From: Streptococcus hillyeri
GTDB lineage: Bacteria > Bacillota > Bacilli > Lactobacillales > Streptococcaceae
Length of the DNA stretch: 64,000 nt
NCBI RefSeq assembly: GCF_003686955.1
Contig: NZ_RCVM01000003.1
Coordinates: 62,001 to 126,000 of the forward strand
Reading direction: 5' to 3'
Shown here one piece after another: positions 6,990 through 60,974 of this stretch. Every line of letters starts with the position of its first letter. Position 1 is the stretch's first letter. Both the position numbers and the translations under genes were made by a program. Below the pieces are notes generated by a model, which was not told the origin of the DNA, did not search any database, and worked only from the letters and a program-made list of their open reading frames with translations.

Positions 6990-8117
6990 CTATTTACTAA
7001 AAGCAATAACAAAGGCAACACCATCTACGGTATTACGAGCCGATATTTTCCAACCATGTTGCTGAATGATGGTTTTGGTGAGTGCCATTCCAATTCCTGT
7101 TTTTCCGTGTTTGCCAGTATAAAAACGGTCAAAGAGGTGTGCTAAATCTTCCTCGCTTAATTGCAGTCCGTCATTGGCAATGGTCAGGCTTTTTGTTGTG
7201 ACTGTCACTCTGATATAGGTCTGGGCATAGCGCAGGCTATTACTCAAAATATTTGTCAGAGCACGTTCTAGCTGTGCGGGATCTGCTAATACTTCCACAT
7301 TTGCCAGTTCCTCTTGCACTTCTAGATTTTGCTGACGAGCTTGGAAGGTGATGGGATAAAGACAATTTTCCAGAACGTCACTCAGCGAAACAGGAACTTT
7401 TTCGATTGCCAGCGCACCACTCTCCAAGCGCGACAGGTGCAAAATTTCATCCACTAGGTGACGCATTTTTTCTGTCTCTTGTAGGATATTCTGACTAGCT
7501 TCTTGCGACGACAACAAGTCGTTGCTTAAACCGTCTGCATAACCTTGAATGACCATCAATGGCGTTTTCAGTTCATGAGAAGCATTTTCAAAAAATTCCT
7601 TTTGCTGATGACGCTCGCGTTCAATCTTAGCCCCTAGACGCATTCCTAAATTTCCAGAACCCAGCAACCCCAGAACAAGAATAAACAGCAACAACACAGT
7701 AATATAGTGCACCAGACGAATTTCTGGTGTAACTTCCACCACAATCATCACCTTTTCCTGTCCCACATCTGCCACACTAATATAGTAATCATTTCCAGAT
7801 AAGTGCACAAACTGAATTTCGTGATTTTTCACATGTTGCTTCGCCCATATCGCCAAAGACTCTAACGTCTCTTGGGAATCCTCATCCATATTGTCTTTAA
7901 GCTGATAATCTTTGGTTAAGGGAACGTCTAATCCATACAAACGTTCAGAAATAATGACATTATATTCTTCTGAATATTCTAAAATACTATCTTGAATGGC
8001 AACCTGCGCTTCCTGATGAATATAGGTCATCATGCCGACATAAAAACCAATCAGAATCAACCCACTGGTCACAAGACTGACTAAGATAAACCAGATTCCG
8101 ACACGTTTTTTCGTCAT
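6990..8117 (-). CDS. membrane sensor histidine kinase
   Basis: 375 residues. Two transmembrane segments (about 8-30 and 135-157) enclose an extracellular sensor of roughly 100 residues. The HisKA phospho-acceptor is H181 in NASHELKTP, followed by an N box (LTNILSNSLRY), a G1 box (IANDG) and a G2 box (GKTGIGMAL). It overlaps the response regulator by 4 bp (ATGA) and forms a two-component system with it. Overall it resembles small VanS/CovS-like kinases, but the signal is unknown. The secreted protein gene just upstream is a plausible target or partner. Confidence 0.92.
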   Translation of the reverse strand: MTKKRVGIWFILVSLVTSGLILIGFYVGMMTYIHQEAQVAIQDSILEYSEEYNVIISERLYGLDVPLTKDYQLKDNMDEDSQETLESLAIWAKQHVKNHEIQFVHLSGNDYYISVADVGQEKVMIVVEVTPEIRLVHYITVLLLFILVLGLLGSGNLGMRLGAKIERERHQQKEFFENASHELKTPLMVIQGYADGLSNDLLSSQEASQNILQETEKMRHLVDEILHLSRLESGALAIEKVPVSLSDVLENCLYPITFQARQQNLEVQEELANVEVLADPAQLERALTNILSNSLRYAQTYIRVTVTTKSLTIANDGLQLSEEDLAHLFDRFYTGKHGKTGIGMALTKTIIQQHGWKISARNTVDGVAFVIAFSK

Positions 8118-8803
8118 GCCAACACCTCCAATTTATAGCCATATCCCCAAACGGTTGAAATAGCGACATTTGATTGTGCTTGACTGAGTTTTTTACGAAC
8201 TCGGCGAACCGTTTCATCTGTCGTCCGTGTTTCAATCGTCGCATCAATGCCCCAAACCTCATCTAATAATTGCTCCCGTGAAATGGCTCGTCCAGCCCCT
8301 TCCATCATAAATTTTAGCAGTTGTAATTCAGTCTGACTGAGTGACAGAGCTTGATAAGAACACACTATCGCATGTTCATGATCAGAATAGGTTAAATCCC
8401 CAAATGTCAGCACCTCTTTTTCTGCCTTCGGCGACAGCATTTCAATCCGCCTAAAGATCGCCTTAATGCGACTCATCAAAATCGAAGGTCTAAACGGCTT
8501 CATCATGTAATCATCGCTACCTGAGTTAATGCCCAAAACATAATCCATGTCCGTATCTTTCGCTGTCAGCAAGATAATCGGCACTGTAGACTGCTCACGA
8601 ATGAGTTTGGTCAATTCAAGCCCCGACCTTCCCGGCATCATAATGTCTAAAATGACCAAGTCGCAAGGATTGTGCTGAAAGGCGTCGTAAAGCGCATCTC
8701 CAGTCTCAAAAACCGTCACCTCATAGCCTGCGTCCACTAAAAATGTCGCCAAAATCTCCCGTATGCTCGCGTCATCATCTGCCGCAAAAATGCGTTTCGC
8801 CAT
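8114..8803 (-). CDS. OmpR/PhoB family response regulator
   Basis: 229 residues from the ATG at 8803, which has an AAGGTGAGG ribosome site; an in-frame GTG three codons earlier is less likely. Receiver domain has acidic residues D9-D11, phospho-acceptor D53 (LDIMMPG) and K102, followed by a winged-helix output domain ending in TVWGYGYKL. It is co-transcribed with the kinase downstream. OmpR-type regulators bind direct repeats, and such a repeat lies before the upstream secreted-protein gene (9890-9908), suggesting regulation of that gene. Confidence 0.92.
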   Translation of the reverse strand: MAKRIFAADDDASIREILATFLVDAGYEVTVFETGDALYDAFQHNPCDLVILDIMMPGRSGLELTKLIREQSTVPIILLTAKDTDMDYVLGINSGSDDYMMKPFRPSILMSRIKAIFRRIEMLSPKAEKEVLTFGDLTYSDHEHAIVCSYQALSLSQTELQLLKFMMEGAGRAISREQLLDEVWGIDATIETRTTDETVRRVRKKLSQAQSNVAISTVWGYGYKLEVLA

Positions 8804-8920
8804 CTGCCTCACCTTCTCTAACGTTTTTCTTATTGTGGGCTACACTTTTTAACCTGCCCCACTCAATCATTTATCTTTACTCTACCGAATTTTTACCGTT
8901 TAAGCAAGACCTCTCACGTG

Positions 8921-8957
8921 AAAGAAGCCTGAGAAAACAATCTCTCAGACTTCTTTT
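8921..8957. terminator. bidirectional hairpin terminator
   Basis: GAAG-C-CTGAGA pairs with TCTCAG-A-CTTC (one internal mismatch), with U-rich tails. It lies 9 bp beyond the stop of the secreted protein gene and separates that gene from the two-component operon. Confidence 0.7.
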
Positions 8958-8965
8958 AAAAACCA

Positions 8966-9766
8966 TCAGTTCATTTGGTCGTAATATTTATCCTCAATGC
9001 CTCGAATCCCCTCAGACACTTTTTCCAATTCCTTTTCAAGTTGAGCAGCTTTTTCCTCGCTTGGACAGGTGTCTAACTGCGCTTCAAGGTCATAAATCAT
9101 TTGATAAGCCTTTGTTAAACTAGCTTTTTCTTCTTTAGACAAAGCAGAGCTTTCATCAATAGCAGCTACTTGGATTTTCAAATCCAGTTTTCCTAGTTTT
9201 TCGTAAGCTGCTGTCAATTGCTCTTCTAATCCATTTGCCTTAGCTTCATCATATGCTTCCTCCTTATCACCATAGAGAGCGTCCAGCTGTTCCTCTAGTT
9301 GCTCAATCGTTGCTAAGATAGACTGATATTCTTTTTTCTCAGTATCTGATAGAGTTTTCATCGCCACTGCATTTTCAGAAGCAAGGCCTTCCTTATCTTC
9401 TGCTGCCATTTTTTCTTCTAATTTCTCGATAGGTTTAAAGAGAGCTTCCAATTCTTTTTCAAGCACTTCAGCTTTTTTCTCGTCAGTAACATTACCCTTA
9501 TCATCGTACAATTTAGCCAACTGAGCTGAAATCTCATCTGCCTTGTCGTAAGCTGCCTTGACTGTTTCTTTCTCCGCCTCTGTCAAGCTCTTGTATTCTG
9601 ATAAAACTGATACCGTTTCAAGTGAGAGGCAATCGCCACCTTGACAAGTCGTTTGTGTCTCATTTGCCAATACCTGCGGTGCTTGTAAAAGCGGTGTTAC
9701 CACCAATGCACCTGCCATAGCAAGACCTGTTACGATAGAAGTTAGTGTACGTTTTGTTTGTTTCAT
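8966..9766 (-). CDS. secreted three-repeat helical (coiled-coil) protein
   Basis: 266 residues with a Sec signal peptide (about 1-34, ending VLA). The mature protein is almost wholly acidic, helix-forming sequence made of three degenerate repeats (about 59-120, 138-199 and 209-262), each starting LT/LS-x-x-EK and containing E-L/Q-x-x-L-x-A/T-x-x heptads. Three cysteines exist: C41 and C46 flanking QGGD, and C233. There is no LPXTG, lipobox or transmembrane anchor, so it is probably released. I do not recognise a named family. Promoter -10 TATAAT is at 9842-9847. Confidence 0.75.
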   Translation of the reverse strand: MKQTKRTLTSIVTGLAMAGALVVTPLLQAPQVLANETQTTCQGGDCLSLETVSVLSEYKSLTEAEKETVKAAYDKADEISAQLAKLYDDKGNVTDEKKAEVLEKELEALFKPIEKLEEKMAAEDKEGLASENAVAMKTLSDTEKKEYQSILATIEQLEEQLDALYGDKEEAYDEAKANGLEEQLTAAYEKLGKLDLKIQVAAIDESSALSKEEKASLTKAYQMIYDLEAQLDTCPSEEKAAQLEKELEKVSEGIRGIEDKYYDQMN

Positions 9767-9889
9767 AAGAATGTCCTCATTTCTATTTAATCATCACCTC
9801 AGCTGAGAGGAAGTTGACCAGTCATCCTTGACTGTGACTTTATTATAGCTAGAAAATCAGCACAAATCCCCACAAACACCACACAGAAA

Positions 9890-9908
9890 TGTCACAACTT
9901 TGTCACAA
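9890..9908. promoter_or_regulatory. direct repeat TGTCACAA x2, 11-bp period (candidate response-regulator site)
   Basis: TGTCACAA occurs at 9890-9897 and again at 9901-9908. The 11-bp repeat period is that expected for dimeric OmpR-family regulators on one DNA face. The site lies about 45-65 bp upstream of the secreted protein's -10 box (9842-9847), a typical activator position. Binding by the adjacent response regulator is inference. Confidence 0.45.
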
Positions 9909-10445
9909 GTGAGAAAGTGAAAATACATGGCAATCTTTTTTAGGGTTATGATAAGGCGCACAATAGCCACGCACCAATAAACTGTAAACATTCACACCGT
10001 AAGACATACAGGTTAGTAAGGTCGCATAATCTTTATCAGAAGTCACTAATACTCAACCAAAATCAAAATTAGCATATTGAGCAAACTAAAGGACCAATAA
10101 AGGTATCAATTTTCCAGCGCTTCTTTCGCCATGGTGGTATTATAATCAAGAGTAAACACTTGATTATAACGGACTTTTTGAGACCTAAGCTCAAAAAGTA
10201 GCAATGAAACTCCAAAGGAGGTTTTGACGCTGACTTTGTCAGCTTCATTTCCCGCCTCAAAAGGTTCCCCAAACCTTTTGAGCGTCCGCACCGTTTTAGA
10301 AAGAAGCAAAAAAGTAATTTTTGATTTTTGACAAATATAAAATAGGTAAAAAATTATTAGGTTCAACCACCAAAATCTGATCCACCTGATAGACCAGTGT
10401 CTCTTTAATATTATGAATATAGAATACCTCACCTTTCTCATTCAC
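9904..10445 (-). pseudogene. class C (pilus-type) sortase remnant, interrupted by a BOX-like element
   Basis: Two fragments of one sortase lie on the minus strand. Fragment 1 (about 10445-10338) reads NEKGEVFYIHNIKETL, YQVDQI and VVEPNNFLPIL; fragment 2 (about 10049-9904) reads VTSDKDYATLLTC, SYGVNVYSLLVRG and YCAPY. TLLTC holds the catalytic cysteine and LLVRG the catalytic arginine of pilin-polymerising class C sortases. Between them lies a 288-bp repeat; removing it with one TAA copy joins PIL to VTSDKDY in frame. The N-terminal half, including the histidine region, is missing, and the C-terminal membrane anchor is not found. Non-functional. Confidence 0.8.
10050..10337. mobile_element. 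BOX-like modular repeat (copy A) inserted in the sortase gene
   Basis: 288-bp non-coding element flanked by TAA at 10047-10049 and 10338-10340. Its ends are imperfect inverted repeats of the AATACTC...CAAAATCAAAATTAG type. Inside are palindromic modules, including a perfect 11-bp-arm inverted repeat at 10140-10169, and sequences shared with the copies at 36986-37416 and 60385-60766 (for example GCTGACnAAGTCAG and CATGGCGAAAGAA motifs). It interrupts the sortase reading frame precisely, so it has moved at least once. Confidence 0.75.
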
Positions 10446-10632
10446 TATATGTATTGGTATCAATGCAGGTTATTACCCAACATTCCCACGACTATTTTAG
10501 CAACCCCTCTTATTATATTCTCATATTAAAACTCTTTATTCCAAAAACACCGAGAAATCCTTAATTGATTTTAATTTTTAAACAATTAGTTTATTTTTGT
10601 TTATTTCAGAAAATTCTAATCGAAATGTATAT

Positions 10633-10668
10633 TTTGTTGTATTTGTTGTATTTGTTGTATTTGTTGTA
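10633..10668. repeat. 9-bp tandem repeat TTTGTTGTA x4
   Basis: Four perfect head-to-tail copies of TTTGTTGTA in the AT-rich region 300 bp before the RofA-like gene. Such simple repeats can vary in copy number by slippage. The surrounding 10446-10839 region shows no supported gene. Confidence 0.9.
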
Positions 10669-10839
10669 AAAATTATTTATCTTTTTTATTTTTATAATAT
10701 CTACGAAAGGATAAAAAACAACGAACCTTATTATCTAATAGCAATATTAACCATGTTTTTTATCACAAAAACCATTTGTTTTAACTTTCAAATGATAACA
10801 ACTACCTCTCCTTAAATGAACCCTCCGAAGCGGTCAAAT

Positions 10840-10913
10840 ACTTGATATCACTTGGTTTTATTGATTTCAGAACACAACTACTTGATTTGACAAACTGTTT
10901 TATTTATGTCAGA
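10840..10913. promoter_or_regulatory. two imperfect 35-bp direct repeats before the RofA-like regulator
   Basis: Copies at 10840-10872 and 10879-10913 both run from ACTTGAT through a T-rich centre to TCAGAA. They lie 37-110 bp before the regulator start. RofA/Mga family regulators bind extended sites at their own promoters, so an autoregulatory site is plausible; this is inference. Confidence 0.4.
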
Positions 10914-10949
10914 ATACTTTAAAATAAATTTAAAAAGGAATTAAAGGTA

Positions 10950-12482
10950 ATGTTAGAAAGGTACATAGAAAAAGCAATTCAAGATAAGGTAACCATCCTT
11001 AATATTTTATTTGATATCAATGATATCAAATTAGAACAGATTGCCACTCTATCCGCTTTACCCACTAAAACAATCTATCGTATCGTTCAAGAATTTGAAG
11101 TTGAATTTGAGTCTGAACTTGATTTGAAAATTGAGCAAGATGTTATCTACATCAAGAAAATTGCAACCCATCATTCAAGTTATTACTTTCATCGTATTTA
11201 CCAGCAGTCTGCTATTTTGCAAACTATCCGATTCTTTCTATTGAATACCGATGGTAACTTCAACGATTTCATTGACCAAAAATTTATTTCCACAGCAACA
11301 GCTTATCGCATCCGCAAAAAATGTGAAGTGTTACTGCGAGCTATCGGTCTTAAGCTCTCAAAAAATAAGATTGTAGGTCAGGAACACCGTATTCGTTTTT
11401 TAATCACCCTGCTACAATATCATTTTGGTATCATTATCTATGACCTATCAGATGGGAGTATTGATTAGATCAAACAAATGATTGTCCAGTCAAATCTTCA
11501 TTCTAAAGACGATTCTTTAGAACTACTTCCCGAAAGGTATCTTTTTTTCGCTATTTTGGTGTCTCTGACTTGGAAACGTCGTGAATTTCCATTAAATGAT
11601 TTTCCACATAAGGAAATCAAACGTCTCAAAAAAATGTTTATTTATCCTATTTTGGTTGAAAATTGCCAGTTATCGTTAAAACCACATCTGGCTACTCCTT
11701 TGACCTCTAAGGAAATGGATTATATTTTCTTGGCATATTGCACAACCCATGTAGTATTTGCCAAAGACAAATGGACAGATGAACGAAAACTCGTTGCAGT
11801 TCAAGCTGTTTTACAAGATTCTCGTTCAAAACATCTTATCTCAAAATTCAAAAAAGTCTTTGGTACTGAGATCGTTGAATCAGATATCTTCCTCACCTCG
11901 ATGACCTTCTTGTCACGAACATTCTTATTCGGCTTGCAAAACTTAATCCCTTTTATCAATCACTATGAACACCACCTCATTGATACTTCAGATTCGCTGT
12001 ACATCATTATCAAAAACATCATCCAAGAATGGATGAGTGAGGAAGGTATTCAAGGATTTTTAGATCAGCACCGCCTTTATTTCTTGTATCTGTACCTGAG
12101 AAATTGTATTCAATCGTCGTTACCATCACTTCCTATCCACATCATTCTCGGAAGTCAGCTAGATCTTGACATGATCGAAGGTGTTTTAAAGCGTAATTTT
12201 ACAGAAGATGTGGCTATTATCAGTAGATACAACCTTTTGGCAGATACATTAAAAGATGCCGAAGAAATCACCAATCAAACAATCATCATTACGACTAAAA
12301 AATTTCTCCCTTATCTTGAGCAGTGCTATCACGGTACAGGCTGTCACTTCATCACGATAGCTATTGATTTGCATATCAATCAACAGCGACTCATTCAAAA
12401 TACCGTCTCTACCATTCGCTTGCAAACCTATTTTGACAAACTTGCGAGCATTGAAAAAAAGGCTAAACATTATCTGACTTAA
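10950..12482 (+). pseudogene. RofA/Nra (Mga family) stand-alone regulator, split by an in-frame amber stop
   Basis: Reads as one 510-codon frame with a single TAG at 11466-11468 (after SDGSID; continues IKQMIVQS). N-terminal HTH domains and the motif KLSKNKIVGQEHRIRFLI closely resemble RofA of group A streptococcus, and the second part keeps LTWKRREFP and the PRD-like region. RofA-like proteins control pilus and adhesin (FCT) loci. GAG-to-TAG or CAG-to-TAG is the simplest cause. An ATG at 11478 could restart a fragment of 334 residues without the HTH. It diverges from the decayed sortase, as in FCT loci. Sequencing error is possible. Confidence 0.85.
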
Positions 12483-12541
12483 TAGTTTTGATTTTAAATG
12501 ACCTTCGTTTCGTAAGGCGTTATATCTGTTCAAAAGGTATT

Positions 12542-12694
12542 ATGAATAACTACCAGCCGTTTGTGAACATAAAAAGAAGCTGGGAATCCCCAAACTCCTA
12601 CAAAGAACCTTTTCAGACAGTGAACTATTTTCGCTATTTTAAGAAGAGGGTGAAGAAGTTACGATTTCTTTGGAAACAGGCTAAATTGATATAG
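12542..12694 (+). CDS. possible small basic protein, 50 residues, unknown
   Basis: Short frame starting MNNYQPFVNIKRSW and ending FLWKQAKLI, rich in lysine, arginine and aromatic residues. An AAAAGG motif precedes the ATG by four bases and the stop lies one base before a strong terminator, so it would be the last gene of the regulator transcript. No family recognised; it may equally be untranslated trailer or a gene remnant. Confidence 0.25.
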   Translation: MNNYQPFVNIKRSWESPNSYKEPFQTVNYFRYFKKRVKKLRFLWKQAKLI

Positions 12695-12695
12695 T

Positions 12696-12732
12696 AAAAA
12701 TGCTGGGCACAGTGCCCAGCATTTTTGTTTTT
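12696..12732 (+). terminator. strong rho-independent terminator
   Basis: Perfect palindrome AAAAATGCTGGGCAC / (A)GTGCCCAGCATTTTT followed by GTTTTTT. Ends transcription from the RofA-like locus. Confidence 0.9.
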
Positions 12733-12885
12733 TAGATGCCCTTTTGTGACAAGTTGTCTCTCCTCTATCTTATCGATTCATTTTCGCCATGGCAACATTT
12801 ACTGAAACTTCTGTAACTGTTCCTAAATAATGTCAAACAACTGATTCCTGTCATGACTTTTAGCAACAGCTTTCTCTCCTACGCC

Positions 12886-12929
12886 AAAAAGGTTAATTAA
12901 GTGGATGAATGCCCTCAATTAACCTTTTT
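12886..12929 (-). terminator. terminator of the LPXTG leucine-rich protein gene
   Basis: AAAAAGGTTAATT and AATTAACCTTTTT arms around an 18-nt loop, 10 bp beyond the stop codon. The arms make it usable on both strands. Confidence 0.8.
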
Positions 12930-12938
12930 CATTGAAAA

Positions 12939-15900
12939 TTAGTTGTCTTTCCGTTTTTTGACCACGATAGCCGATAAGTACGCGAGAATCGCTATTCCTA
13001 GTCCATACCAATAAGAATCACTTGTAGTACCTGTTTTCGGTAGAACTTTTGATACAGAAGTTCCCTGAGTTGAAGATAAAGCTTGTTGTGCCTTTTTTTC
13101 TTTCATAGGGAGTTCTGATGCGGTGTTTGGCTCGTGACTTGGTTTGTCATTTTCAGACGACGCCTGAGGTTGCGACATTCCTTTCCAATCTTTCACCGCG
13201 TCTTTTACCGCTTCAAAGATGGCTTGACGATGGTAACTTGCTTTTGGAACATCGCGAATTTGAGTCATATCTGCCAATTCTTTGGTGCGAATCTCTTCGA
13301 CAGATAGGCCTTCGTAATCCTGCAAGGTCGCCACAGCCAAGGCATGGTAACCTTCATTATCTTCATCAATATTCAGAACTGGATTACCATATGTGTCTTT
13401 CTGGCCTTCGCCAATGCTCTCGCTACGATCCAAGATATACAGAATCACACCATTTGCATCCACATACACATTCAACCCAATATAATATTCTGGCAATGGA
13501 AGGGGGCTCTTGAACTGATGCACTCCTTGTACCATTGTTGCTTGAGCCAAGATACCTTTTCCTGTCACCAATCCTGTCAAGAGGGACAATTCTTTTTCCA
13601 AACGTGACACTTGTTCTGCTGACAAAGCACTGTTGTTGTAAGAACGTACAGCGTAGACATATTTTCCTTGTAATAGAGCTAAATTAGGAGATGTTGTAAA
13701 ATCCTTCATGGCCGTTTCAGCTAATTTCATTTGACAATCAAGTCCCAAACGTCCCATGAAAAAGCGGCTGGTATGGATAAATTGCCACTGTTCCCCTTGA
13801 CGCAGCTCTTTTTTCGCCACCAATTGTTCTCCTTGATGCAACAAGTCCTTAAACTGCTGCTGAGTGGAGGTACGCAATGTCGAGAAATCAATGGCTTTCA
13901 TTTCAGTCATTAACTGGGTCAACACCTCACGATTTGTTGCCAATTTCGCAGTATTGATGATATGCCCCTCCCCATCAGGTAGCTGACTTTCTGCTTCGCC
14001 TGCTGTCATCACTTCGACTGTTGAACCTGGTTTCCCATTTTGAGTGAAGGCATTAAAGGCGATTATTTCAACCTTTTCTGGTAATTGTACACGGTGCAAC
14101 TGATTGGTACGGAAGGCTTCTTCTTTGATTTCCCGTAATTGTGGTGGTAACTCAACCTTTTCCAAACGATTATCTGCAAAAACTTGAACCGATAGAATTT
14201 CTAATTTGTCTAAACCAGTCATATCAACTGTCGTCAAGGCATTGGATAGGAAAGCCATTTCGCCAATCTCCTCCACATCTTTGCCCAAGAAAAGGATGGC
14301 CTGTGCTCCATTTTGACGAAAGGCAGAGCGACCAATCTGCTTAACAGCTGGAGGAACCACAATTGCAGAGACATGGTTGATATGAAAAGCTGCATCCCCG
14401 ATTGTCTGGAGAGAGTCAGGTAATTCTAATGTACCAATGCGATTATTCATAAAGGCACCTGCACCAATTTCAACCACACCTTCACCCAAATTCAAGGACT
14501 CAATCCGATTAGACTGAAAGGCAAAATCTCCAATTTTTTGAATACTGTTTGGCAAGAAAACTTCTTCTAAGTCATATTTTCGTAGGCTTTGCTGGTCAAA
14601 ATCAACATTTCGAAAGGCATTGGCTGCAATTTCTGTGATGACATGCTCACCATTTCGCTCTGGAATGTCAAGTTTCTTCAAGCGACGAACTTTTTGAATG
14701 CCCTTCTCTGAAAAACCAAGGATCACTGAGTCTTGGTAACGGAAATCTTCTGCCACCCAACGGCTGTAATCTATCTTGGCAACCGCTGTTTGTAGCTCTT
14801 TCCCTGGATTTACATAGGCACCTTCCGTTTTTAAATGATGCGGATTTTTGCCATCTGTCGTTGTCAGTACTACCTGATTGCCATAATGGTCATCACCTGG
14901 ATTGCCAGTAAAGGCTTCTTTTCCAATACGCTCCAAGTTAGCTGGCAGATGAACTTGACTCAAATCATTGTCTTGAAAAGCTGCTTCACCAATCTCTTTC
15001 AAAGAAGTCCCCTTGAAAACAACCGATTGCAAACGATTTGATTTGAAGGAACGCTCACCAAGATAGGTCAGAGTCTTCGGTAAAACCAGTTCACCTGTTA
15101 AACGATTGTCAAAAAAAGCCATATCGCCAATATGCGTCACTTCCGATGGCAGACTAAGACTCTTCAGAGCCATGTGTGCAAAAGCATAATCTGAAATCCG
15201 TGTCAAAGTCTTTGGTAAGACAACTTCTGTCACATTTTTATGATCCGCAAATGCATCCGCTCCAATATGGGTATAACCTTCTGGAATCGTGATTTTCGTC
15301 AACACATAAGCATTGATGGATTCGCCCTCTGTAGAAATAACGTTCCCATCCGCATCTAAACGGTCTACTTTACCATTTTCGCCGACACGGCTCGTATATT
15401 CTGCAATTACCGTATTTTTATCAGGCGCAAATGCAAAACTCGCCACGCGCCGTAAAACAGTGCCATCTGTTCCTTTCTGAGGTAATACCAAATGACCCGT
15501 TTGCCCTAGCTTCTCTACTCCCTTGCGTGATAACCCAACAAGACAATCTCCACGCGTGATAAAATCTTCGCTCTGCCAAATGGAGTCAGACAGCTCTTGT
15601 ACCTTTTTGTCTACAGATGGGTTCGTTTTAGGGAACTCTTTGGATGGTTTCTTTGCATCTTTGGAATCATCGTCCTCTGCAAATAAGTCCTCTACTTCTT
15701 CTGAAAGAGCTTTATCAGATTGTCGAGGAACATCTTCTGCTTCTTCATAAAACCAGTCCTCATCTTTTTTATCTTCTGAGTAGGTAGGCTTTGACGGCTT
15801 GGAAGCCTTCGGTTTATCTTTTCCTGCGTCTGACGTTCTGTCTCCAAATAAATCCGTCACTTCATCTGAAACCTTTTCTGTATCCGTTGACGGTTTTTTA

Positions 15901-18272: not shown

Positions 18273-19036
18273 TTACAAGTCAACTTCTGTTCCTTCGAGA
18301 AAGATTACAGTAATCTGCCCACTCTCTGAGATAGTGATGTTATCAAAGACTTGGCACATAATGTTACTATCGAAATAGTCTAGGTCAAGAACTTGTTTCA
18401 TAAACTTGCCATAATACTTATGCGGAAGATTGTCACCCTTGTTTAGCTTTTCTAACTTATCAAGAACATCAGTTTTATGGTCTTTGAGTATGCTGACGTT
18501 TTTCATAAAAGCCTTCTCTAACATTTCCTCATCAATATGGTTATTCTGACAGCCAATCTGTCCTTTGACTCTATAACGATTGTTACACTGCCATACTTTA
18601 CGTTTACCTCGACTGGTGGTCTAGTTCTTTCTACCAAAGGCCGAACCACATTCTGCACAGAACACTTTTGTGGTGAATGGAGTATTGTCATTTTGCACGA
18701 TGTAAAATTTCAGTAGATGTTCTTCACGAAAGGCTTTCCTCCTGTCCAATTCCAACTGTACTAATTCCCATGTGTCTTTGTCAATAATAGCTTCATGGCT
18801 ATTTTCTACATAGTATTGGTTGACTTGACCATCATTTTGAACTCGTTTCTTAGTCAAAAAATCAACTGTAAAGGTCTTCTGCAATAAAGCATCGCCTTTG
18901 TACTTTTTTTGAGAATCCTACTTGGATACCAGTTGGCCTTTCCTGACCAGCCCTTGATACCTTTGGTGTTGAGTTCCTTGGCAATGTTTTCTGCACTGTA
19001 ACCTTTTAAGAAAGAAACAAAAAAGTAATTTTTGAT
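18273..19036 (-). pseudogene. large serine recombinase remnant
   Basis: Minus-strand fragments read FLKGYSAENIAKELN, GIKGWSGKANWYPSRIL, then after a frameshift near 18910 KYKGDALLQKTFTVDFL and KRVQNDGQV, the zinc-ribbon CAECGSAFGRKN, a TAG stop (18630s) where tryptophan is usual, and an in-frame C-terminal part to EGTEVDL. These are the recombinase and zinc-ribbon domains of Tn916/ICE-type large serine recombinases. The N-terminal catalytic serine domain is absent; its edge coincides with a BOX-like end at 19009-19050. Inactive. It explains how the islet entered at the rlmCD 3' end. Confidence 0.85.
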
Positions 19037-19215
19037 GTTTGTTAAGTATTAATACATCACTATTTATCCAGATAAAAAATTTTTAGTAAACAGATTGTTA
19101 GGGGGACATATATTCCCACTAACCTCATGTATCTGAAAACAAATCATCCCATCATCATGCTATTAAACCAACTCACTCAACTTAAACACTCACTCTGATA
19201 CTTACTCTATACGAT

Positions 19216-36985: not shown

Positions 36986-37416
36986 AATACTTAACAACAA
37001 CAAAGCTATAGTGTTTTGAATTTATAAAGTCAATTAGTTTTTATTTAGTATTTTTTAGCACTTCTCCTAATGTGGTGTGGGGCGCTCAAAAGGTCTAGGA
37101 GACCTTTTGAGGTGGGGAATAAGGCGAACGAAGTTCGTCTCAATCGTTAAGGTCTGGGAGACCTTTGGAGGTGGGAAATGAAGCTGACTAAGTCAGTGTC
37201 AGAACCTCCCCTCCTACAGAGTTCCATTCCTTCTTGGCAAGCCTAGGTCTCCTTCGCTCCCAGGTTTCTAAGCTCAGGCTGAAACTGTCCACTGGACAGT
37301 TTCACTAATAAGAATACCACTATAGCGAAAGAAACATTTTACCCTCACTTCGTTCGGTAGTCCATCAAAAGTATTAGAGGTTCTAAAATGCTAATTTTGA
37401 TTTTGAATGAGTATAA
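36986..37416 (+). repeat. BOX-like modular repeat, copy B
   Basis: About 430 bp, running from TAATACTTAACAA to CTAATTTTGATTTTGAATGAGTAT. Inside are nested palindromes (CTCAAAAGGTCT / AGACCTTTTGAG; GAAACTGTCC / GGACAGTTTC around ACT) and modules shared with copies A, C and E. It fills the gap between the C39 peptidase and divIB; no gene is visible in it. Confidence 0.75.
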
Positions 37417-47089: not shown

Positions 47090-47300
47090 CTGAACTTTAA
47101 GTGTCCATCTCAAATAGTCCACTGAACAGTTTCACCCCCACACACTAAAACTTATTAGTTTTAGTGTGAAGGGGGTGGCAAGACCTAGGCTTGCCAAGAT
47201 GGAATGGAACTCTGTAGGAGCTCGCTTCCGCCCCACACCACATTAGAAGAAGTGCTAACAAAAATACTAAATAAAAACTAATTGACTTTACCATTCTATA
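47090..47300 (-). repeat. BOX-like modular repeat, copy C
   Basis: Minus orientation; shares GTCAATTAGTTTTTATTTAG, TAGCACTTCTnCTAATGTGG and CTCCTACAGAGTTCCATTCC modules with copies B and E. Contains hairpins CACACTAAAAC / GTTTTAGTGTG and a GTCCACTGAAC variant core. Lies inside the toxin-antitoxin islet; 47008-47460 has no supported gene. Confidence 0.7.
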
Positions 47301-54072: not shown

Positions 54073-54347
54073 TATACTCATTCAAAATCAAAATTAGATT
54101 TTTATATCCTCTAAGTTTTGATAAAATTATAAATGTAGGGAATTTAAAACATTTCTTTCAGCAGAGTGGTAAGTTCCCATCATCTCGATTTTGTCGTCTT
54201 AGACACTGTAAAAGCGACAATTCTCAGCTCTTCGTAGTTGCTAAAGCTATGACACCAAAGGTTTGTTGGCGTGCTAACCACATGAGGAGATTTTAGAGAA
54301 AAGAAAATATTTTTGTTCCTGTCTAATTTTGATTTTTATAGAGTATA
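54073..54347. mobile_element. BOX-like element with 25-bp terminal inverted repeats, copy D
   Basis: Left end 54073-54097 (TATACTCATTC then AAAATCAAAATTAG) and right end 54323-54347 (its inverse) match in 22 of 25 positions. 275 bp, non-coding. The ends equal those of the element inserted in the sortase gene, which supports a mobile non-autonomous family. 54348-54597 shows a GCGACC/GGTCGC hairpin and no gene. Confidence 0.7.
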
Positions 54348-54597
54348 AGACAGGAAACTGTCTATTTCACGCGACCTTGTGGTCGCATTTTAAACTGATG
54401 CGGAGAAGTTCAACTTGTGAATACTGTTTTTTACAGGATTCTAATCTCAATATTAAACATAAGTCTGTTTAAAGTTTCAAAACAAATGACAGTCTGAACC
54501 ACTCCTATCGTTTTACACCACATAAGGTTAATTTTTTCAGATTTTGAAATGAATTCAGTACTTTTTTTCTTATTATTTATTTTCAATCCTACTCTCT

Positions 54598-60330: not shown

Positions 60331-60384
60331 GTTATTTATAGACTCTTCTAATCTAGTCATTGAAATTTTATACCCGTTGTGCTA

Positions 60385-60766
60385 GTTATTTTCTTTTTTA
60401 GCACTTATCCTTATGTGGTTCGGGGCGGAAGCGACCTCCTACAGAGTTCCATTGCTAAATTTGAGCCCAATCATCCTTGCAGGGGACTACTACGAAATTG
60501 AGTTTCAATTTCTGTAATTCTCCCAAAAGTCCGTTCTTATCAAAGGTAACCTCTGAGATCTCTCATTTCTAATCTCAGACTTATGTCACTTTCCAGTTTC
60601 TCAGTAACAGGCTTTGATAGTCTCTCCCCAGACTATCAAACTCCACAGAACAGTTTCACCAATAAGAGGGCAACTATGGCGAAAGAAAGGTTTAAACTCA
60701 CTACATTCGTTGGCTTATCACTAATATTAAAGGTTCTAAAATTCTAATTTTGATTTTGAACCATTA
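60385..60766 (+). repeat. BOX-like modular repeat, copy E
   Basis: Begins near TTTTTTAGCACTTATCC, contains CTCCTACAGAGTTCCATT, ACAGTTTCACCAATAAGAG, ACTATGGCGAAAGAAA and ends GGTTCTAAAATTCTAATTTTGATTTTGAA. Same module order as copy B. The 60250-60974 gap holds this element, the PAP2 terminator and, at its end, a probable -10 (TATAAT near 60909) for the next gene. Confidence 0.7.
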
Positions 60767-60974
60767 TATTTTTATAGTGAGTTGCGAGGAGACCTAACCT
60801 TACCAAGAAGAAATAATGTGCAAAATGTTTTTACTTCAACTAAAATTAATTTCTTATTTGGACCAACCTATGTAACGTCACACACAATCTTCCTACAAGT
60901 TTTATGCTATAATAGTTGAGATTGGACATTAACCATTATTCAAAGATATCATCAATACTAGAGAGGAAGCGATT

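Follow-up and report, generated by a model that had tools for sequence, protein, structure and literature searches.

The 288-bp repeat that interrupts a sortase reading frame in Streptococcus hillyeri is probably a BOX-type MITE that was inserted whole and mobilised in trans by a TNA-targeting transposase of the IS630 family. In this reading, an element without a transposase would have entered a TAA site in a class C sortase relic as a unit, with duplication of 3 bp, and the transposase would have been supplied by an IS630-family element, about 1.1 kb long, that shares these ends and also duplicates TNA. The site lies in the window (the 64,000-nt stretch of DNA that was analysed, G000:C33:62001-126000) of a 2.15-Mb host genome assembled in 83 contigs, and comprises the following features.

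10050..10337, plus strand: BOX-type repeat of 288 bp within the sortase relic, one of 53 end-paired copies
10047..10049, no strand: left copy of the TAA target duplication, read from the sequence
10338..10340, no strand: right copy of the TAA target duplication, read from the sequence
10050..10072, plus strand: left terminal inverted repeat TACTCAACCAAAATCAAAATTAG, scoring 18.0 against the IS630 end profile
10314..10337, minus strand: right terminal inverted repeat, reading inward TATTTGTCAAAAATCAAAAATTAC, 17.8 on the IS630 end profile
10341..10469, minus strand: upstream piece of the sortase relic (P0001), from its NF033745 match and relatives' ORFs
9942..10046, minus strand: downstream piece of the sortase relic (P0002), with the TLLTC and LVRG segments, from its NF033745 match and relatives' ORFs

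The preliminary description had given a 288-bp element between TAA at 10047-10049 and TAA at 10338-10340, a 3-bp target duplication and imperfect inverted ends, all of which are correct. The terminal inverted repeats agree at 16 of 24 positions in the sortase-site copy and at 15-20 of 24 across the 53 copies. Only one ORF of at least 80 aa overlaps the element (111 aa, 10106-10441), and it extends into the sortase relic; a Pfam search with this ORF returned no family, and the element has no transposase of its own. An Rfam search at gathering scores likewise returned no family at the element. A second full-length copy, on contig C15, is 93% identical to it.

The two sortase pieces lie in one minus-strand frame, with the peptide ..PNNFLPI leading up to the element and VTSDKDYATLLTC continuing beyond it. 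Both match the class C sortase model NF033745 (E 2.9e-7 for P0001 and 3.5e-6 for P0002), with scores that are under the curated cut-off because the pieces are short. By ungapped extension on this profile, the pieces end at position 190 and start at position 192, and the codon of the TAA site fills position 191. In tblastn comparisons with sortase ORFs of 12 relatives, which are from other species and are not independent of one another, consecutive residues flank the element in all 12, with none lost or gained; the junction is reached by the matches themselves in nine relatives and by ungapped extension in three (L040, L041 and L055). In G263 and G264, these matched stretches lie exactly 291 bp closer together (288 + 3). 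The earlier claim that the frame is rejoined when the element and one TAA are removed is thus borne out without a gap in every relative, and the proposed check for an empty site yields uninterrupted sortases, but in other species and not in strains of the host species.

What is left of the sortase corresponds approximately to residues 179-242 in a relative of 291 residues (L046); the first ~178 residues and the C-terminal part are missing, and the region 8001-13000 contains no sortase match at E <1 besides the two pieces. The insertion target is a remnant and not a gene split in two, so that of the proposed insertion into a class C sortase gene, the site and the frame stand while the intact gene does not. 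As the relic lacks both terminal parts of the sortase, inactivation of a working gene by the insertion is not claimed. Around the relic lie a two-component system, a protein of 266 aa with no family above cut-off, and an Mga-like regulator. The latter (10950-12482) occupies two adjacent ORFs, an HTH part at 10950-11468 and a PRD part at 11478-12482, and is perhaps a split gene. Upstream of it, at 10633-10668, TTTGTTGTA occurs four times in tandem; tandem runs of such short repeats can vary in length.

The element has 77 matches in the host genome (40 of 131 candidates were scored in a first look). With up to 3 mismatches, the left-end pattern TACTCANNCAAAATCAAAATTAG matches 84 times and a reversed-pattern control once, and a 29-base right-end pattern matches 64 times against 0 for its control. 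Pairing of these ends gave 54 pairs, of which one was dropped, its right end being shared with another pair; 30 left and 11 right ends are unpaired, and L202 was left out of the counts. The remaining 53 copies with both ends range from 230 to 718 bp, and their lengths are mostly grouped near 234, 288, 346, 400, 444-454 and 502-512, in steps of ~50-60. By eye, the extra sequence of longer copies falls either at the tips of hairpins or in the interval from GGAGGT to GCGTCCGC.

Identical 3-bp flanks are present in 44 of the 53 copies, and identical 4-bp flanks in none. The flanks have the form TNA in 53/53 cases on the left and 51/53 on the right, and the middle base is equal in 44 of the 51 copies flanked by TNA left and right; when the middle base was shuffled 20000 times, 23.1 +/- 3.4 copies agreed (maximum 36), and no shuffle reached 44. 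The flanks of L139 and L162 are nearly identical, so these two may go back to a single duplicated insertion, which gives a stricter count of 43/52. Among the unpaired left ends, we examined five left-left inverted pairs, with identical flanks in three, and 19 further ends, for three of which a right end was found, again with identical flanks. The genome-wide comparison that had been suggested to define ends and target preference yields both, as paired ends in 53 copies and a TNA duplication. As for other insertions in genes, no copy is flanked by open frames reaching at least 180 nt on one side and 90 nt on the other, a threshold at which the sortase site itself fails; at 75 nt on both sides there are six of 53, among which the sortase site (132 and 141 nt) ranks first by the length of its shorter frame.

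The window also contains other BOX-type pieces, whose shared stretches support the earlier observation that modules recur among copies here.

36988..37413, minus strand: BOX-type copy of 426 bp with TTA on both sides and a diverged right end (8 mismatches), from shared stretches and ends
54075..54345, no strand: 271-bp relative (L174) with two inverted TACTC ends and unequal flanks (TTA / TAA), from its ends
19020..19048, plus strand: isolated right end from a BOX-type copy, found with the right-end pattern
47181..47290, no strand: partial copy with stretches in common with 37025-37250 (I1, I5, I7, I8)
60383..60768, no strand: copy with a degraded end and stretches in common with other copies, from shared stretches and the left-end pattern

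Small elements of 271-280 bp and 180 bp that are bounded by a pair of inverted TACTC-type ends include L172-L175 in the host and L213, L215 and L216 in other genomes; their flanks are identical in L172, L173 and L175, and unequal in L174, L213, L215 and L216. A 75-bp miniature on host contig C3 (L192) retains the two ends and is flanked by TTA left and right.

In a scan of 284 genomes of the genus, the left end at up to 1 mismatch turned up in 15. Same-family copies flanked by TAA left and right are present in three contigs, from S. moroccensis and from Streptococcus sp. S784/96/1; these two seem to be already among the 15 and would then not be independent additions. A search of plasmid records with the element gave no match, and one of phage records gave one partial match; a boxB-like stretch in an S. 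suis prophage record (62 nt, 82%) had no matching ends around it.

The candidate source of the transposase came from genome G051, where a 1076-bp element (L205) with the BOX ends TACTCATCCAAAATCAAAAATAGC and GCTACTTTTGATTTTTGTTAAGTA contains a transposase of the IS630 family, and so is not a MITE. Its transposase is broken, and its flanks are unequal (TGA and TAA). The catalytic piece scores 138.8 bits against NF033545 (cut-off 100) and 86.7 bits against PF13358 (cut-off 28.6), and the other piece scores 55.7 bits against NF033545. Relatives of the catalytic piece are present in 50 of the 284 genomes; transposase matches in plasmid (989 records) and phage (1 record) sequences are all below 60% identity. 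We inspected 70 loci with transposase homologues, 30 from the homologue search and 40 chosen by hand from the search listing, mostly in genomes with many copies, for inverted TACT...AGTA ends 1000-1250 bp apart, disregarding the flanks. Ends were found at 54 of these (49 distinct, 5 duplicates). Of the distinct copies, 41/49 have identical 3-bp flanks, with TNA at 48/49 left and 48/49 right flanks. These IS630-family elements of other streptococci thus have ends (TACTnAAnnAAAATCAAAA) in common with the BOX-type copies and the same TNA duplication; unlike the host element, they encode a transposase (NF033545).

The usual duplication of the IS630 family is TA (2 bp). The subgroup studied here duplicates 3-bp TNA instead, and its assignment to the family rests on the transposase. 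We built an end profile from 34 distinct IS ends, with the copy of L205 (L228) excluded and TACT unscored. All 106 ends of the host copies (53 left and 53 right) score above 9 on this profile. Among the 374 TACT sites of the window, six score above 8 bits, and five of these are BOX ends (10050, 19048, 37413, 54075 and 54345); the sixth, at 54560 with flank AAG, scores 11.2, is not a recognised BOX end and counts against the IS630 reading, and the remaining sites score ~0 bits or lower.

The search for a transposase with matching inverted ends, as called for at the outset, thus succeeded in other genomes, but none was found in the host: homologues of the L205 catalytic piece gave 0 matches there, as did PF13358, in a search whose control was positive in just 3 of 14 genomes. 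Since the host assembly is in 83 contigs, it could lack a multicopy IS. The second-richest genome in BOX ends (G031, with 11) has no match to the L205 transposase at E 1e-10. In the same genome, a BOX-like left end (L221, from 1501) is situated ahead of an ORF resembling another transposase; a right end was looked for there and not found. The lack of a host transposase, the broken transposase and unequal flanks of L205, the result for G031 and the 16 of 70 loci without ends all count against mobilisation by IS630, and shared ends and target fall short of proving it. We nonetheless consider trans-mobilisation of the BOX copies by an IS630 transposase most likely. The element would qualify as a MITE by its inverted ends, its target duplication, the lack of a transposase of its own and a partner with the same ends, the last in other genomes only. 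The host lineage would once have held such a transposase, and its copies may now be immobile for want of one; with no IS630 transposase found in the host, they look stranded.

A MITE moved by a different transposase, of an IS5-group element or ISSpn2, is unlikely, though it is the best placed of the alternatives. Some IS5-group elements duplicate 3 bp, and the host has five matches to PF01609 transposases. Two of the places with these transposases have other ends (on C2 and C44, around CACGACAAACGCATGAA, unlike BOX), and two are without clear ends (C22 and C83), so we rejected them as movers. A similarity of BOX ends to ISSpn2, proposed for pneumococcal BOX, is cited by Croucher et al. 2011 (PMC3049150); if ISSpn2 belongs to the IS630 subgroup studied here, this alternative merges with the IS630 explanation. 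IS630 copies fit BOX in both ends and target.

It is less probable still that the element is kept as a structured RNA or DNA, with mobility merely a matter of its history. A consensus fold of 13 of the 53 copies, picked for alignability, has 60 predicted pairs, eight of which show two-sided changes. Pairing of the ends is expected for MITEs in any case, a function in the host element would be hypothetical, and folding with conserved pairs has already been drawn for pneumococcal BOX, as the accessible text of PMC3049150 shows. Finally, the idea that there was no transposition, and that the repeat arose by recombination or slippage with a 3-bp match by chance, is scarcely credible: shuffled flanks of this AT-rich set still agree in ~23/53, so that a single site proves little, but the observed 44/53 lies beyond all shuffles and the sortase junction is gapless.

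Among known systems, the host copies most resemble the E/F family of S. suis BOX-type repeats, with boxB modules, which is likewise modular with inverted ends according to Croucher et al. 2011 (PMC3049150), where S. suis repeats with A/C and E/F ends are described. The host copies vary in modular steps of ~50-60 nt, the pattern expected from repetition of B modules, and the 288 nt of the sortase-site element agrees by size with an S. suis E1B1F1 element (E about 115 nt, F about 133 nt in the sections consulted of PMC3049150), a likeness by description and not by module HMMs. An E1B1F1 element of S. suis was reported earlier inside an acetyltransferase pseudogene, and inverted ends and duplications of BOX were stated in the same partly available source, which terms the repeats apparently dormant (PMC3049150). 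Direct evidence of transposition as a unit had been presented as unusual in the preliminary description; insertion as a unit is well supported, but its novelty was overstated, and the sortase-site copy is a cleanly dissected further case of a known BOX phenomenon. The IS630 ends with the TNA duplication seem to be a new addition, as we met no earlier description of such a BOX partner in the open-access literature searched. A parallel is RUP of S. pneumoniae, also a repeat linked by its ends to an IS630-family transposon (IS630-Spn1), according to the part of PMC3049150 available. RUP differs from the host element in being a simple 107-bp unit that is not modular. Its target is TA.

The left end of pneumococcal-type BOX is found in 123 of the 284 genomes. 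In a sample of one copy each from 30 of these, two lacked a right end, and 24 of the other 28 loci have identical 3-bp TNA flanks; five loci repeat the flanks of another, which leaves 19/23 distinct loci with identical flanks. On the IS630 end profile, its left end reaches 12.2, and the right ends are of two kinds, scoring 10.6 (17/28 loci) and -12.7 (11/28 loci). Pneumococcal-type BOX has the TNA duplication, like the host element, and a left end that agrees with the IS630 profile; of its two kinds of right end, one does not. We regard it as an even question whether BOX-type repeats across streptococci, of the pneumococcal and host kinds, are MITEs of a single TNA-duplicating IS630 subgroup, which would have seeded several BOX families and often been lost from copy-rich genomes.

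The sortase site is one among 53 copies, and is in a gene that is now decayed. Its wider meaning concerns the mobility of BOX, which until now was based on a modest end similarity to one IS, as far as the accessible part of PMC3049150 goes. The IS630 elements with matching ends and a 3-bp target provide a concrete candidate transposase, and the defined ends and target permit clean annotation of BOX-type repeats.
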